From positions 1 through 25,941 of the IMG/VR virus record IMGVR_UViG_3300025141_000645: a DNA stretch of 25,941 nucleotides; one strand, 5' to 3'. The notes beneath the pieces are model-generated. The model did not search any database and was not told the origin of the DNA. It worked only from the letters and a program-made list of their open reading frames with translations. The translations under genes and the position numbers were made by a program. This document shows positions 2,951 to 22,274 of the stretch, in pieces (position 1 is the stretch's first letter; each line of letters starts with the position of its first letter). The stretch is from a virus.

Positions 2951-2989
2951 TCCTGAACTCCTGTGTTCACTTGTCTAACCGTTTCCTGA

Positions 2990-3018
2990 ATTGTAGCATA
3001 ACCGTAAAAGCCTGTCAA
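2990..3018 (-). promoter_or_regulatory. Promoter of the 2690-2950 gene
   Basis: -35 TTGACA (3013-3018), 17-nt spacer ending TGC, -10 TACAAT (2990-2995). CTGCAAAT lies upstream. The nearly 190 bases to its right (3019-3209) are AT-rich, and I see only a weak stem (3099-3105 with 3113-3119) there. Confidence 0.8.
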
Positions 3019-3209
3019 CATATTTGCAGACCTTCAGTATATTAATATATCTATTCACTATATATAGGTATATATGTTTAGCATCTACTACATGTTGTAT
3101 CCCTTATTTAGGAAGGGATTAGGGATATATAGGAGAGGTTATTTTGTTTCCCACTTTGATTAGTATTCCTGACTATATCCCTATAGTTTTACTGTAATTC
3201 TATTATATT

Positions 3210-4316: not shown

Positions 4317-4901
4317 TTACCAATCTTCAGTTCTAAATATATGAGATGGTGAACCATTCAGTTCAGCTACATATTGTTCTAAATGCATATCTAAAAGTTC
4401 TTTATTAAAAACTATCTTTATCCAATCCCATGCAAATCCAATCTGCCCTAGATCATTATAGTGGACAACTCCACTACCTAACCAATTAAAGAATCCCTGT
4501 ACTCGACCTTCTATATATCCCTCTCCATTTGCATAGGTTTCTGACTCAACCTTTATCCTATTATAGATTCTATCTCCAAAGCCATTCTTATATGCTATAT
4601 AGTTAAGGGCTTCCCCTATAACTTCCTGATCAGGAAATCGGATATCATGGTAAGTAGCATCATCTTCTTCAGGAACAGACTTTAATATAATATCTTGAAC
4701 CTCATGGAGAGCATCATCAACTTCCCAATTAGTAATCTCCCCTAGAAGATATCTACAGAGTCCCCCACCTACACAGTAGTTACCATCAGGAGAATCAAAT
4801 GGAATTGCATCTGCTGATCTAGCATCAGGGTAATAATCCTTTAATGCTTTCATATGTTCTTCTGCTGTTGCTGAAGTAAATGGAAATTTAAGTGTTGTCA
4901 T
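4317..4901 (-). CDS. Hypothetical protein
   Basis: A 194-aa acidic, aromatic-rich soluble protein I cannot place in a family. Near residue 40 it has DGNYCVGGGLCRYLL, a Cys- and Gly-rich stretch, followed by a mostly helical region and a Trp-rich part around 140-160 (FFNWLG, FAWDWI). The start at 4901 is chosen because GGAG precedes it and it lies just after the start-site tag. A start at 4937 would lie inside the promoter. It is a single-gene unit with its own promoter. Confidence 0.75.
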   Translation of the reverse strand: MTTLKFPFTSATAEEHMKALKDYYPDARSADAIPFDSPDGNYCVGGGLCRYLLGEITNWEVDDALHEVQDIILKSVPEEDDATYHDIRFPDQEVIGEALNYIAYKNGFGDRIYNRIKVESETYANGEGYIEGRVQGFFNWLGSGVVHYNDLGQIGFAWDWIKIVFNKELLDMHLEQYVAELNGSPSHIFRTEDW

Positions 4902-4937: not shown

Positions 4938-4967
4938 ATCTTAACACAGGCTTAAAAACCTTGTCAA
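4938..4967 (-). promoter_or_regulatory. Promoter of the 4317-4901 gene
   Basis: -35 TTGACA (4962-4967), 18-nt spacer ending TGT, -10 TAAGAT (4938-4943). TCGAAAAACAAG starts 9 nt after the -10 box. The -35 box begins only 5 bases beyond the CCA end of the tRNA-like RNA. Confidence 0.9.
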
Positions 4968-4972
4968 GTTTT

Positions 4973-5149
4973 TGGGAGGGCAGAGAGGAATCGAACCTCT
5001 CTTCTTATAGCTCAAAGACTGCCTTGCGTCTCCCACAGCAATTAGAAGCCTAAGTGGAGAACTAGCTGTTCTAGTGACCGTGGTCTAAATGTCTTTCAAG
5101 CACAACCTAGCGTCTACACTAGCATACCATAAGTATCTACCAGTACCCT
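4973..5149 (-). ncRNA. Candidate RNA ending in a tRNA T-arm, acceptor strand and CCA
   Basis: On the minus strand, 5000-4984 is a perfect tRNA T-arm: 5-bp stem AGAGG/CCTCT around the canonical loop TTCGATT. It is followed by a 7-nt acceptor-like strand (CTGCCCT), a discriminator C and an encoded CCA (4975-4973). No normal 5' tRNA half is in the expected place. AGGGTAC at 5149-5143 could pair with the acceptor strand at six of seven positions. The bases between hold several stems: CTAGTG/CGCTAG, AGAAC/GTTCT, TCTCCAC/GTGGGAGA, and GGCAG/CTGCC around the T-arm. It could be a tRNA-like non-coding RNA, a broken or intron-bearing tRNA, or a tRNA 3' fragment kept as an attachment site. The tRNA-like 3' end is clear; the 5' limit is a guess. 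Confidence 0.45.
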
Positions 5150-5153
5150 ACGT

Positions 5154-5360
5154 TTAATATACTAAATCTGTTATATCTGTTTCACAGACTGGACATTCCC
5201 AACCTGTAAATTCATTACATGCACTACACATACCATCTACATGTTCATGCTCATTGTCCCCACAACATCCACTAACTGGATCAGCATGGTAGCCATCAAG
5301 ACAATCTAACATCTGCATATAGTCAGCCCCTTCCTGTTCGTACTCTTCATTAGTCATCAT
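5154..5360 (-). CDS. Small double zinc-ribbon-like protein
   Basis: A 68-aa acidic protein. It has a C-terminal cluster of Cys and His residues (CCGDNEHEH, then MCSACNEFTGWECPVCETD), giving a C..C...C..C ribbon pattern plus extra Cys and His. Function unknown. The start at 5360 is chosen because GGGGAG lies 7 nt before it and the upstream gene stops at 5362, just 1 nt away. The upstream continuation of the frame overlaps that gene entirely. The candidate tRNA-like RNA begins 5 bases after its stop. Confidence 0.75.
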   Translation of the reverse strand: MMTNEEYEQEGADYMQMLDCLDGYHADPVSGCCGDNEHEHVDGMCSACNEFTGWECPVCETDITDLVY

Positions 5361-5361
5361 T

Positions 5362-5685
5362 TTATAACTCCCCTTGTATGTTAGAATATCTGCCGTCCTG
5401 ACTTGCTCCCCCTTGTATACACCAAGCATCAAACTTCTCAGGACTCCCATAGCAAACAACTGGTAATTCATTATAAATAAATGTACATATATTTCTAAGC
5501 CTAAGTATATGATTCCCATCAGCTTTGCCTACAGCAGTCATTAAATCATTCTCTAATACTTTCTGTAAGAATCCACCTGTAGCAATCCCATACTCAAAGA
5601 ATCTTTGGAATGCTCCCTGACAACATCCACACTCTAACATATCGTAATTTAACTTTTCTATATATGTTGGAAAGTTTGTAACCAT
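5362..5685 (-). CDS. Hypothetical protein
   Basis: A 107-aa protein I do not recognise. It has a CGCC motif at residues 19-22, a helical middle and two further single Cys residues, so a metal site is possible but incomplete. GGGAGAT upstream of the ATG at 5685 overlaps the end of the preceding gene (stop at 5689-5691). It lies downstream of the promoter at 5736-5765 and is probably cotranscribed with 5154-5360. Confidence 0.75.
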   Translation of the reverse strand: MVTNFPTYIEKLNYDMLECGCCQGAFQRFFEYGIATGGFLQKVLENDLMTAVGKADGNHILRLRNICTFIYNELPVVCYGSPEKFDAWCIQGGASQDGRYSNIQGEL

Positions 5686-5688
5686 TAT

Positions 5689-5916
5689 CTATCTCCCATG
5701 TTTGAATAGACTTGCTTTCGTTTCGACCTGAGAAAATCTTAACACAGTCTCAAAACTTGTGTCAAGTTCTTTGCTTTTTCGTAACTCTTTTTCTTTTATA
5801 TCTTTAGCTTTCTTTTCTAGGATACGTGAAATGTTACGAACTGATTTTCTATTATCAGATTTAAATGTCTTTCGTTTCCTAAGTCTTCTATCTCTTGATA
5901 GCCAATCTCTAGCCAT
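5689..5916 (-). CDS. Small very basic protein whose end overlaps a promoter
   Basis: A 75-aa protein, strongly basic (runs such as RDRRLRKRK and ILEKKAKDIKEKELRKSK), predicted helical and possibly nucleic-acid binding; no family recognised. AAGGAG lies before the ATG at 5916, which overlaps the last 8 bases of the upstream gene. Its last 25 or so codons (from KELDTSF) run through the -35, -10 and start-site tag of the next promoter, so the C-terminus is dictated partly by promoter sequence. Confidence 0.7.
   Translation of the reverse strand: MARDWLSRDRRLRKRKTFKSDNRKSVRNISRILEKKAKDIKEKELRKSKELDTSFETVLRFSQVETKASLFKHGR
5736..5765 (-). promoter_or_regulatory. Promoter of the 5685/5360 operon
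   Basis: -35 TTGACA (5760-5765), 18-nt spacer ending TGT, -10 TAAGAT (5736-5741), TCGAAACGAAAG 9 nt further on. It lies entirely inside the 3' part of the 5689-5916 gene. Confidence 0.85.
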
Positions 5917-6211: not shown

Positions 6212-6253
6212 ATACGTTCTCCTTGTTTTGCTTGTTTTGCTCGATTTGCTCAG

Positions 6254-6283
6254 AGTATAGCAAAGTTTTCAGACAGTTGTCAA
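6254..6283 (-). promoter_or_regulatory. Promoter of the 6211/5916 operon
   Basis: -35 TTGACA (6278-6283), 18-nt spacer ending TGC, -10 TATACT (6254-6259), TCGAGCAAAACAAG 9 nt further on. It starts one base after the stop of the small membrane ORF 6285-6365. Confidence 0.85.
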
Positions 6284-6284
6284 G

Positions 6285-6365
6285 TTAGCTACAAATTGCC
6301 CATATAAATATAACTACAAAAAATAGAATGACGGCTGGAAGTACACTAGATTTTCCCTGCTCCAT
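6285..6365 (-). CDS. Very small single-pass membrane peptide
   Basis: A 26-aa ORF: a short polar start (MEQGKSSV), then a strongly hydrophobic stretch of about 17 residues (AVILFFVVIFIWAI) that would span a membrane, ending CS. AAGGGGG lies 6 nt before the ATG. It fits exactly between an upstream reading frame and the next promoter. At this length it cannot be proven coding, and function is unknown. Confidence 0.5.
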   Translation of the reverse strand: MEQGKSSVLPAVILFFVVIFIWAICS

Positions 6366-6402
6366 ATAGCCCCCTTATATTAAATATAATGTCCACACTT
6401 AG

Positions 6403-6456
6403 CTTTCCTATATACTCTTCTGTATGGGGCTTGTAGACCCCTTCATAGCTAATCTA
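6403..6456 (-). repeat. Stop-linked 54-nt element, copy 1
   Basis: It begins with the TAG stop of the 42-aa zinc-ribbon gene, then 9 nt, then GAAGGGGTCT. It matches a second copy at 16335-16388 at about 39 of 54 positions without gaps, counted by eye. GGGG and CCCC can form a 4-bp stem around an 8-nt loop. In frame with the stop it reads on as EGVYKPHTEEYIGK and stays open to 6346. Confidence 0.6.
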
Positions 6457-6582
6457 TTTAACGATCTTTAATTCAAAGTTACAGTTCTCGCAATCCAATA
6501 AGTTCCCTGAGTATTGACTAGGCTTGTCACCTTTAATAGGTTTTTTGTAGTCAGCACAAAACTTATTCATACATTGATACAT
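6454..6582 (-). CDS. 42-aa zinc-ribbon protein
   Basis: A short ORF with the pattern C4-x4-C9 ... C31-x2-C34 (MYQCMNKFCADY near the start, LLDCENCNFEL near the end), a compact zinc ribbon. The 49-aa protein at 15925-16074 has the same C-x4-C...C-x2-C arrangement, so the two may be relatives. The start lies 11 nt after the stop of the 6594-6839 gene, with only a weak purine-rich site. The frame continues past its TAG into the repeated element described separately. Confidence 0.65.
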   Translation of the reverse strand: MYQCMNKFCADYKKPIKGDKPSQYSGNLLDCENCNFELKIVK

Positions 6583-6593
6583 TTTATCGGCTT

Positions 6594-6839
6594 TTACTTT
6601 GACCATGCTTTTTTCACCTCATCAGATACATTGTAATAATCATCAGGAAAATTGTATAGGTTATCTCTAAGATATTTCATGTCTGAAATATTACTGACTT
6701 CTCTATATGGAACTGGAACTTTCTCAAGTTCTTTAATTGCATAATATAAAGCCTGTCCTATAATATAGTTTCCCCTCAAATTCTCTGCGAATGTTCTAGC
6801 TTTGTTTAGTTCTTTTGTACTATCTGTAATTTGTGACAT
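6594..6839 (-). CDS. Hypothetical protein
   Basis: An 81-aa protein, helical and mildly acidic, starting MSQITDSTKELNKAR, with many Tyr in the second half and no Cys. I recognise no family. AAGGAG lies 8 nt before the ATG at 6839. The leader upstream holds the hairpin RNA at 6862-6955, whose closing stem ends 15 or so bases before the ribosome-binding site. Its translation may therefore be controlled by that structure. Confidence 0.75.
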   Translation of the reverse strand: MSQITDSTKELNKARTFAENLRGNYIIGQALYYAIKELEKVPVPYREVSNISDMKYLRDNLYNFPDDYYNVSDEVKKAWSK

Positions 6840-6861
6840 CTGGAATACTCCTTTGTATTAT

Positions 6862-6955
6862 ATGGGCAAGGAACGGTGGCATGGCTCTCTGGCACTCCTA
6901 CCTCACAACTGCCGTCCTTTCCTATTCAGTAAAGTTGCCTTACTGCCTTGCCCAT
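6862..6955 (-). ncRNA. Candidate structured leader RNA
   Basis: A perfect 10-bp stem closes this element: ATGGGCAAGG (6955-6946) with CCTTGCCCAT (6871-6862) on the minus strand. Inside are a 6-bp hairpin CAGTAA/TTACTG with a 7-nt loop and a second G/C-rich arm (GGCA/TGCC). It fills the gap between two genes and ends just before the ribosome-binding site of the 6594-6839 gene. It matches no riboswitch or ribozyme consensus I can recall. A cis-regulator or a free RNA are both possible. Confidence 0.5.
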
Positions 6956-6964
6956 GTATGAATT

Positions 6965-7195
6965 TTAATAGCCTAAAATGTCTTGTGCTTGAGGAATATA
7001 TTCTTCAGCCAATCTATTAGCAGACTCTACTGCATTATCTATATAGTCTAATGCATTCTCCAAAGATGAATTAGCATCTTCTATGTTAGAAATAACATCC
7101 TCTATGTCATCTCTCCTATATCCAAGTTCTTTAACTTGCTCCTCTGCATTCTGTAGAACTTCTCTCAACTCTTCTGCGAAACCATTATAGTCCAT
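6965..7195 (-). CDS. Small coiled-coil protein
   Basis: A 76-aa very acidic protein, almost entirely helical with heptad-like spacing (ELREVLQNAEEQVKEL, then DDIEDVISNIEDANSSLENA), so probably a coiled coil. Function unknown. The start at 7195 has AAGGAG 7 nt upstream and lies after the promoter and tag. The longer reading to 7285 translates the promoter and is rejected. Confidence 0.75.
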   Translation of the reverse strand: MDYNGFAEELREVLQNAEEQVKELGYRRDDIEDVISNIEDANSSLENALDYIDNAVESANRLAEEYIPQAQDILGY

Positions 7196-10398: not shown

Positions 10399-11454
10399 CT
10401 ACTTAACAAATGAATAAGCAGTTTGAAATGCCCTTGCTTTTGTCTCAGCTCTCATACCAAATAAGGCAGTAGAGGAATCTTTATGCCCTTTCCTATAGTC
10501 TTCTGTCTCTACAACAGCTTGCCATATAGCCCAAGGTGTGTTAGCAAGGTTAGAATGTTCTTCATTAAAAACATGGAACCTATCTTTCGCTCCACTTCTA
10601 ATAGCTTTAACTCTATCTTGCCTTCGCTCCCATTCTTCTACCAAGTCTTTACGATCTAGTAATAAGTTTGTCCACACTTCTTTAGGTACATCATCAGAAG
10701 TAATCTGATTTGATATACTTAGTCTACGTGGCTTAGACGCATCAGGATAAGCACTTGTCAATACCCTCTCTACATCTTTACTCTCTATCTTAACTGTGGC
10801 TAGAGAATCCATCATAGGAATGACAGTCTCTTTAGCTGATGTCATTTTACCAAACAATCCCATGAACCACTCAGCATCTTTTTCAATGTTTCGTGTGTGG
10901 GTTAGTCTGACATTTACTTTAGCAGATGACAGACCTGATGTCAATGTATTCTGACATACTACTCGTACTGGAGTAAATGCCATTTGTAATGACCCTACAC
11001 CTGTTCGGTGATCTGTTACTAAGTAATAGAGATTGTGGTCTTCCCCTGCTATCTTTGACTCCCCTGCATCAAGAGTCATAAATATTTGTTCCCCATATCC
11101 TAACGCTCCTATAGTTTCCACAGGATACTTTTCGGTAATTGGGTCTAGCATTTTAGCTAGTGTTTTAGTTTGTATAGGTGTCCACTCCTTACCTACAATA
11201 GATAGTATCCTATGAATAGGATCATCATCTACAGGTTCTCTGACAACTGCAAAGTTGCCTGTAGGAACAACATCTACAGACCCATCCTCATTTTCTATAT
11301 GAGCATAGGCAGGATGTTTATCAATAGAGAAATCTATCTTTGCTCTCTCTACTGCTTGTGTCATAGTTAGGGGTTCATTAAAGACCTCTCCTAATCTATG
11401 CCATGCGGGTTCTCTTCTACCTAAGAACCTATCTCCAAATATACTTGCTGGCAT
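10399..11454 (-). CDS. DUF932 family protein
   Basis: A 351-aa protein of the DUF932 (phage/plasmid-like, TIGR03299) family. It has the start FLGRREPAWHRLG, a WTPIQTKTLAKMLDPI segment, a DHRTGVGSLQMAFTPVRVVC segment, NTLTSGLSSAK, and a C-terminal helical part ending AETKARAFQTAYSFV. Full family length. The biochemical role of DUF932 proteins is unknown. AAGGAGG lies 7 nt before the ATG. It has its own promoter at 11502-11530 and is one of the few well-conserved genes in this accessory region. Confidence 0.9.
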   Translation of the reverse strand: MPASIFGDRFLGRREPAWHRLGEVFNEPLTMTQAVERAKIDFSIDKHPAYAHIENEDGSVDVVPTGNFAVVREPVDDDPIHRILSIVGKEWTPIQTKTLAKMLDPITEKYPVETIGALGYGEQIFMTLDAGESKIAGEDHNLYYLVTDHRTGVGSLQMAFTPVRVVCQNTLTSGLSSAKVNVRLTHTRNIEKDAEWFMGLFGKMTSAKETVIPMMDSLATVKIESKDVERVLTSAYPDASKPRRLSISNQITSDDVPKEVWTNLLLDRKDLVEEWERRQDRVKAIRSGAKDRFHVFNEEHSNLANTPWAIWQAVVETEDYRKGHKDSSTALFGMRAETKARAFQTAYSFVK

Positions 11455-17079: not shown

Positions 17080-17274
17080 CTAATTTATATACTTATTTTT
17101 GTATTTATCTAAGCAGAATGCATCAGAACCGGGGTTAAATCCCCCCATTCCAAACCCTGAACAGAGATATCGTTGGGTATCAATTACCATCATGGTAGTT
17201 AGTGTCCCACAAATTACGCAGTAACCTTTATTCCCTACGTCCCTATAGGAGCGAAGCCAATCTTTATTACTCAG
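17080..17274 (-). CDS. Zinc-ribbon protein lacking a normal start codon
   Basis: An open frame of 60-odd codons with a convincing protein: NKDWLRSYRDVGNKGYCVIC at the start, then two more Cys (LCSGFG, DAFCLDK) giving C-x2-C...C...C. There is no in-frame ATG, GTG or TTG before the first Cys pair; the frame opens only with CTG near 17274. It overlaps the last codons of the 17267-17500 gene in the +1 frame. It may use a rare CTG start, be joined to that gene by a +1 frameshift near its TAA, or reflect a sequence error. Confidence 0.55.
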   Translation of the reverse strand: MSNKDWLRSYRDVGNKGYCVICGTLTTMMVIDTQRYLCSGFGMGGFNPGSDAFCLDKYKNKYIN

Positions 17275-17500
17275 GGATTTTAATGCCGTCTAACAAATCA
17301 ATTGCTGACTTACTAAACTCTCTTAGTTCTTTCACTACTGCTTTCTTCTCAGCAGCTGTAATCTTTTTATCTTTAGTAGCTGCGGCAATAACTGAAATTA
17401 CATCCATACCCTCTTTAAATACGTATCTAGCTTGGGCAGATTGTCCTGAGTTTAATTTAAAATACATCATTGCCATATTCATTATTGCAACTATGTTCAT
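17267..17500 (-). CDS. Hypothetical small helical protein
   Basis: A 77-aa protein. It has a hydrophobic N-terminus (MNIVAIMNMAMMYFKLNSGQ) and a mostly helical rest with a DKKITAAEKKAVVKELREF stretch that resembles an EF-hand-like or TerB-like turn between helices, without enough match to name it. AAGGAGG lies 8 nt before the ATG, which overlaps the stop of the Cys-rich gene as ATGA. Role unknown; its place among small membrane genes suggests a lysis-region protein. Confidence 0.75.
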   Translation of the reverse strand: MNIVAIMNMAMMYFKLNSGQSAQARYVFKEGMDVISVIAAATKDKKITAAEKKAVVKELREFSKSAIDLLDGIKIPE

Positions 17501-20906: not shown

Positions 20907-22274
20907 CTAGGATGTGGCGTTCAAATCGCCAATCTTTGACTGTACCCAGATATTCCTGCATCGCATTTCACCCATTGTGTAGAGTAGACCTCTAACAACA
21001 AGTGCATTGGCGGCGAAGTAATCTCTGTTCTCTACATACTGCGTGGGTTGCGCTATGGCAATTTCCATGTAGTCTGTGTCAAGCACATAGATGTTTGAAC
21101 CTAGAACGGTATCAGCCGCTGCTACTGATTTTGGCACATCCGCATCTGGTAGAATTGGTATACCTTGGTAAGTAGCGAGGACTAGTCCAGTTCGTGTACC
21201 GGGGAAAGTTCTTTCAGAACCGACTCCCACTTGATACTCTTCCTGTCCCATATACCTCTGATTGCTGTTAAGCAACCTTTCCAAGTTAAAGTACTGGTCG
21301 TGACCAAGTAGTATTAACTTAGGCTCACCACCATTCTGCCTGATATTCTGAATTGCTGTATCAAGCAAAGTAAGGGTGAGGTTTCGTCCGACACCAGCAT
21401 TCATGCTGACATTAGAAGAAGCGTTCCATTGTCCTGATGCCCTACCTCCAAAGGTAAGGTCGTAGGCTCGGATACCACCATTTGCTGCGAAGTTAGCATT
21501 AGGAGTACCGCCAATAAAGTTTTGACCGTCCTCTGCTACTACGTCATCAAGTGATGTCATTCCAGCCCTACTATATATTGCTACACCGTCACCATCGGCA
21601 AAGGTTGTACCTGTTCCAATTGTTACTGCTCCTGTGGTAGTATTAACAGCCGAAACTGTTCGTCCTACTTCACCGGTGACCCAATTGTCATCAGAATTGT
21701 CGTATTGTGCTACGGTGTCACCAATTTTAAAAGATGATGCCATAGATGCTGGAACTGTAAAGGCTGTTGTTGAACCGGCAGATGTAATCATTGCTGCGGG
21801 GGCTAACAACTCCTCATTAATTTCTTTGATGTGGTCAAGCTGGGCATTCTCATTTTCCAACGCCAACACATCTCCAACGCCACCCTCAAGCTGTGCAGTA
21901 AAGACGGACTTTACCGATGCTCCGAAAGTGGTTGCTACGATACGAGGCAAGCTCGATACCGTTTCAATATTAGAGACATCTACAGTTGGTAGGGTTCCTA
22001 CTTCTGTGACAGGCTGGGATCGTCCAGACCCTCGGTCTGTCCTTACCCTCCAACCAGCTGTGTTTCCCCAGACTGTTCTGGGAATGGCATTGAAGAAACG
22101 AGTTTGGTTATTTAAAGCTTGCCATACTTTTCGTCCATACGTAGTATTAAAAATACCAGTTGCGGTATCGACTGTGAAATATGATTGTTTCATCATATAC
22201 TCAGGGCCAAAAACGCTCTGATACAAACCACGTTGAGACTGTGCTACATATTCACTAAGTGATGGGTTTGACAT
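20907..22274 (-). CDS. Major capsid protein (HK97 fold)
   Basis: A 455-aa protein. The N-terminal region (SVFGPEYMMKQSYFTVDTAT, then RKVWQALNNQTRFFNAIPRT) and the C-terminal segment (LILLGHDQYFNLERLL, then a GIPILPDADVP segment) have HK97-type capsid character. Residues about 165-235 (a Thr/Val/Gly-rich stretch with GDTVAQY, GTGTTFADGDGVAIYS) look like a beta-rich insertion domain, common as a surface decoration on such capsids. It is not cut from a long N-terminal scaffold; a separate scaffold-like gene lies upstream. GGAGG lies 8 nt before the ATG. Confidence 0.85.
   Translation of the reverse strand: MSNPSLSEYVAQSQRGLYQSVFGPEYMMKQSYFTVDTATGIFNTTYGRKVWQALNNQTRFFNAIPRTVWGNTAGWRVRTDRGSGRSQPVTEVGTLPTVDVSNIETVSSLPRIVATTFGASVKSVFTAQLEGGVGDVLALENENAQLDHIKEINEELLAPAAMITSAGSTTAFTVPASMASSFKIGDTVAQYDNSDDNWVTGEVGRTVSAVNTTTGAVTIGTGTTFADGDGVAIYSRAGMTSLDDVVAEDGQNFIGGTPNANFAANGGIRAYDLTFGGRASGQWNASSNVSMNAGVGRNLTLTLLDTAIQNIRQNGGEPKLILLGHDQYFNLERLLNSNQRYMGQEEYQVGVGSERTFPGTRTGLVLATYQGIPILPDADVPKSVAAADTVLGSNIYVLDTDYMEIAIAQPTQYVENRDYFAANALVVRGLLYTMGEMRCRNIWVQSKIGDLNATS

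Follow-up and report, generated by a model that had tools for sequence, protein, structure and literature searches.

A putative non-decoding RNA with tRNA-like ends, conserved between two viral contigs

Among known RNAs the closest object to the one described here appears, from its layout, to be T4 RNAC (rnaC, species 1 RNA; NC_000866.4:70908-71046, L167:1409-1547), a 139-nt RNA that is expressed in infection, as detected by Northern analysis (PMC9697503), and whose function is unknown (PMC3014915, PMC9697503). The exact T-arm of RNAC (CCGGG TTCGAAT CCCGG) is accompanied by an acceptor strand pairing with the far 5' end at five of seven positions, two hairpins are placed where the D and anticodon arms would be, the 3' end reads UACA without CCA, and tRNA genes adjoin the RNA. 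In the Karamvirus relatives (L168-L170) the RNAC T-stem, acceptor stem and both hairpins covary, with double changes in 12 pairs. Transfer-messenger RNA (tmRNA, SsrA) also has tRNA-like ends, bridged by a long helix at the anticodon-arm position, and mimicry of tRNA by a non-coding RNA is known from the bacterial Y RNA (YrlA).

The window analyzed here is a 25.9-kb IMG/VR fragment (25,941 nucleotides), and its minus strand between 5149 and 4973 is on balance best described as a conserved non-coding RNA of ~177 nt having tRNA-like ends and lacking D and anticodon arms (Table 1). The T-arm carries the TTCRANY loop of a tRNA and is followed by the 7-nt acceptor strand, discriminator base and CCA that an earlier note on this DNA had claimed, all located within 5000-4973. 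The CCA lies, as also claimed there, exactly five bases (AAAAC) from the TTGACA (4967-4962) of the next promoter. A tRNA has a 7-bp acceptor stem at the canonical distance from the T-arm; here both candidate 5' strands pair at six of seven positions, one (AGGGTAC) starting 149 nt and the other (AAGGCAG) 25 nt before the T-stem. The AGGGTAC pairing, which agrees with the note, includes one G-U pair and leaves one C-C mismatch, and this strand starts 4 nt past the stop codon of the upstream gene. ARAGORN run with and without introns finds no tRNA or tmRNA at the element, confirming that the D and anticodon arms are not in place. Rfam gives no match to the element at the gathering level and none to YrlA in searches of the window, the best sub-threshold match being beta_tmRNA (12.5 bits, gathering 84) covering the T-arm only.

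Table 1. Positions of the tRNA-like element and its surroundings in the window; the relative is the 85-kb contig L002
Feature	Position	Strand	Remark
T-arm AGAGG-TTCGATT-CCTCT	5000-4984	minus	exact; same in the relative
3' acceptor strand CTGCCCT	4983-4977	minus	unchanged in the relative
Discriminator C (4976) and CCA (4975-4973)	4976-4973	minus	TTCA in the relative, with tRNA-Tyr starting 6 nt on
AGGGTAC, presumed 5' acceptor strand and presumed RNA 5' end	5149-5143	minus	pairs 6/7 with CTGCCCT; identical in the relative
TGGTAGATA, single-stranded, at D-arm position, contains GG	5134-5142	minus	invariant in the relative; unpaired in consensus fold
P2-like 8-bp helix, 5' strand CTTATGGT	5126-5133	minus	consensus fold
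P2-like 8-bp helix, 3' strand GCTATAAG	5004-5011	minus	consensus fold
Small hairpin CTAGT/GCTAG	5107-5122	minus	consensus fold; loop in the relative differs by indel
Long interrupted hairpin	5033-5083	minus	double compensatory C-G to U-A; another pair C-G to U-G
Hairpin AGAC/GTCT	5016-5031	minus	consensus fold
AAGGCAG, rival near 5' partner of acceptor strand	5025-5019	minus	pairs 6/7; would make a 51-nt mini hairpin
Sigma70-like promoter of next gene, TTGACA-18-TAAGAT	4938-4967	minus	member of repeated promoter family
Nearest upstream promoter, also of this family; the RNA's transcript presumably starts here	5736-5765	minus	motif
Upstream gene, ~68-aa protein with paired Cys motifs	5154-5363	minus	no family match
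Downstream gene, 194-aa protein	4317-4901	minus	no family match

The window RNA and T4 RNAC are alike in being phage-encoded and non-coding, in the exact T-arm, and in a long-range acceptor stem (six of seven positions in the window compared with five in RNAC) with a replaced middle, the internal fold of the window RNA being a working model; just as RNAC adjoins tRNA genes, the relative of the window has a tRNA-Tyr gene beside the element. The differences are the CCA of the window in place of the UACA end, and a single helix-enclosed replacement domain rather than two hairpins. Expression is, of the two, proven for T4 RNAC only. No sequence similarity to RNAC outside the T-arm was found, and no phage record gave a significant hit when searched with the window RNA.

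The individual motifs are of limited weight. A perfect T-arm (TTCRANY, five pairs) is expected ~0.01 times per window by a hand estimate, and another one is present by accident at 20915 (+) within the capsid gene; by itself the motif is therefore no proof. An acceptor partner matching at six of seven positions has a chance of 0.0029 per position, so that ~0.4 such partners would turn up at random over the 140 nt upstream, and the pairing of AGGGTAC alone is thus not significant. The single-sequence fold is no better than shuffles (z -0.27). Because T-arm, pairing and single fold are all weak alone, the case rests on relatives. The position before a promoter is likewise not special by itself, since 111 of 122 sites combining T-arm, CCA and TTGACA, among the matches listed, are ordinary tRNAs.

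It is conservation in the relative, as read from the aligned sequences, that raises the element above chance. The comparison is between two sequences, the window and L002, an 85-kb IMG/VR contig that was the only further carrier found by viral-contig scans, DNA patterns, neighboring proteins and a covariance model; the covariance model built here gives ordinary tRNAs 14-23 bits too, and little can be read into its weak matches. Identity between window and relative is 79-84% across shared blocks, 77.5% and 85.5% in the genes downstream and upstream of the element, respectively, and 72.3% at 1,428 fourfold-degenerate sites of 21 genes. At aligned sites the element itself shows 94.0% identity, and its seven gap positions arise from indels of 2 and 5 nt within its middle. 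No change affects the T-arm, either acceptor strand or the D-loop-like stretch TGGTAGATA, and the upstream ~120 nt are as conserved as the last 51 nt. Absence from relatives, which the earlier note would have taken as favoring chance, is not what this contig shows, and purifying selection would be the simplest reading of the conservation.

The joint fold of the pair, calculated using RNAalifold, predicts the acceptor stem, the T-arm, an 8-bp helix (CTTRTGGT/GCYATAAG) occupying the anticodon-stem position, a small hairpin, a long hairpin and a second small hairpin. All five substitutions at paired positions, which fall in four pairs with one pair changed on both sides, keep pairing and none breaks it; in the P2-like helix the changes from A-U to G-U and from G-U to G-C both preserve pairs. 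The consensus fold has a z of -2.84. Elsewhere in this genome pair 11% of windows score as well, which leaves the internal structure a working model that the statistics do not establish. The single-sequence fold had offered a long-range helix, GCTTGAAAGAC/GTCTTTGAGC, which was rejected, as the window-only fold loses eight pairs in the relative. Better two-sequence fold scores (z -4 to -6) occur in windows 6800-6972, 1520-1692, 11120-11292 and 17120-17292.

The relative differs at the 3' junction. There CTGCCCT-TTCA closes the element, and after six further bases comes an intact tRNA-Tyr(GTA) gene ending CACCCT-ACCA-AAAACTTGACA, whereas the window reads CTGCCCT-CCCA-AAAACTTGACA and has no tRNA-Tyr gene at the corresponding place. 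The CCA and promoter of the window align with the end of the tRNA-Tyr, and therefore the tRNA was lost in the window or gained in the relative; loss would be accounted for by a deletion in the window between the two CCCT stretches, the alternative being a gain in L002. The 5' end of the element, around AGGGT, agrees with the 5' end of the tRNA-Tyr in the relative at 15 of 19 positions; only three of the 170,088 positions of the L002 genome reach this level. This likeness supports AGGGTAC as a probable true tRNA-type 5' end and, together with the conservation, strengthens the suggestion in the earlier note of a new tRNA-like RNA.

The element is best read, with moderate confidence, as a stable tRNA-like RNA that does not decode and would be cut out by the tRNA-processing enzymes of the host, a ~120-nt internal domain between acceptor stem and T-arm taking the place of the D and anticodon arms. 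The layout that it shares with the experimentally known RNAC speaks for this reading. The element forms the 3' end of a unit running from promoter 5765 through genes to the RNA, just ahead of promoter 4967, and no intrinsic terminator was found at its end. Most likely, RNase P of the host would cleave a read-through transcript from promoter 5765 at AGGGTAC, and the host tRNA 3' machinery would trim its 3' side, the CCA being present or added. Excision would give the upstream mRNA an end and leave a stable RNA unable to decode codons. The released RNA may mimic a tRNA and so bind or divert a protein recognizing the acceptor, T-arm or CCA, or may simply serve as a stable end for the transcription unit. 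Counting against the excised, tRNA-like RNA are the comparison of just two sequences, the single-sequence and consensus fold scores given above, the TTCA of the relative, which has no encoded CCA, and the mismatch in both 5' acceptor candidates.

The main rival, possible but rather unlikely, is a decaying tRNA gene, once in tandem with the tRNA-Tyr, which took up an insertion or became fused with a neighbor and kept only its ends. The likeness between the two 5' ends suits such an origin, as does the stretch GGGAGACGC (5034-5026), which looks like the 3' half of the D-arm in phage tRNA-Leu genes and stands at canonical T-arm spacing; the adjoining tRNA-Tyr has itself been lost or gained between the two phages, and the indels in the middle of the element point the same way. 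Speaking against decay are a substitution level of 6% in the element, far under the 28% at silent sites, and the full conservation of acceptor and T-arm in the relative. When the element was treated as a tRNA with an intron or insertion, ARAGORN run over all internal deletions gave many weak hits, which were no commoner than in shuffled controls, and the best triplet at the anticodon position differs between the phages (CTT versus CTA). The earlier idea of a disrupted tRNA thus retains the tRNA-Tyr likeness in its favor but is opposed by the low substitution rate and the deletion scan.

In a smaller alternative, which is improbable, only the last 51 nt matter and AAGGCAG is the 5' acceptor strand of a mini tRNA-like hairpin. 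One A-U pair of this stem has become G-U in the relative through an A to G change and is thus kept, and the size and the position before TTGACA equal those of an element in Korravirus genomes (described below), but the consensus fold forced to the AAGGCAG partner is 10 kcal/mol worse than that with AGGGTAC, and the 120 nt further upstream show equal conservation.

A reduced tmRNA, that is a shrunken or tag-less phage transfer-messenger RNA, is likewise improbable. The acceptor, T-arm and long helix replacing the anticodon arm correspond to the tmRNA layout, the top sub-threshold Rfam match is to a tmRNA model, and another phage contig has a tmRNA-like RNA of 184 nt (L082:422-605; 29 bits, below threshold) with a 7/7 acceptor stem, G3-U70 and CCA, and TTGACA two bases on, its length being far below that of usual tmRNAs. 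Unlike tmRNA, the window RNA is about half the length and has no Rfam match at threshold, none of its possible tag reading frames, which in tmRNA end in a small hydrophobic tail, is plausible and conserved between window and relative, and both sequences have G-C, not the alanine-type G-U, at acceptor pair 3-70. A permuted two-piece tmRNA using GGGCAG after the promoter was also considered and is put down to chance because other promoters of the family differ there. Separately, permuted two-piece tmRNA genes are present on viral contigs L078:1234-1613 and L089:4727-5049 with TTGACA near the acceptor piece. An attachment site bearing a host tRNA 3' end, the remaining suggestion of the earlier note, is highly improbable although tRNA 3' ends commonly serve as attachment cores, as no tyrosine or serine recombinase domain (Phage_integrase or Resolvase) was found in the window or the 85-kb relative and a search for an identical host tRNA end did not find even the 23-nt core in 84,980 prokaryote genomes.

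The Korravirus (Arthrobacter phage) element is intergenic, unannotated and present in about 100 genomes (L033:340-430 in Glenn; L036, L038-L043). It comprises an acceptor stem (GGGACCGG/CCGGCCCC), one hairpin, a T-arm with a TTCGANA loop and two double changes in the T-stem, and a CCA-like end followed by TTGACA; in Glenn and Wayne a longer insert takes the place of the hairpin. It resembles the window RNA in the T-arm, the acceptor stem, the CCA-like end before TTGACA and the lack of a D or anticodon arm, and differs in being ~51 nt in most members. No sequence homology links the window RNA to this element, to RNAC or to the L082 RNA. We tentatively suggest that unrelated phages (the window phage, T4-like phages and Korraviruses) might share a recurrent, largely unannotated class of non-decoding tRNA-like RNAs, combining acceptor stem and T-arm, in which host tRNA-processing enzymes make stable RNAs or RNA ends; T4 RNAC would then be its first-known example. 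If other phage lineages keep the RNAC-like layout, comparison could show which parts matter (acceptor, T-arm or position before a promoter), and tests with RNase P, tRNase Z, the CCA-adding enzyme or EF-Tu gain meaning. The element also shows that a conserved kind of phage RNA escapes tRNA finders. As a separate observation, Bacillus phage BM15 (L034:244-326) has an unannotated tRNA-Trp-like gene in a tRNA cluster that ARAGORN misses and Rfam scores at 29.5 bits.

The promoters on either side of the element belong to a minus-strand family (TTGACA-18-TAAGAT-like) with members at 5765, 4967, 4304, 3725, 2671, 8389 and 11530, which carry a conserved leader, AGRTCGAAAA, after the -10. Elsewhere in the window, the long intergenic stretches 2951-3209 and 6212-6593 are 89% and 86% identical in the relative, respectively. 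A host search by alignment of the DUF932-like protein gave no genome match. The major capsid protein (20907-22274) is nearest to those of haloarchaeal tailed viruses, with 29% identity, and the promoters look bacterial.
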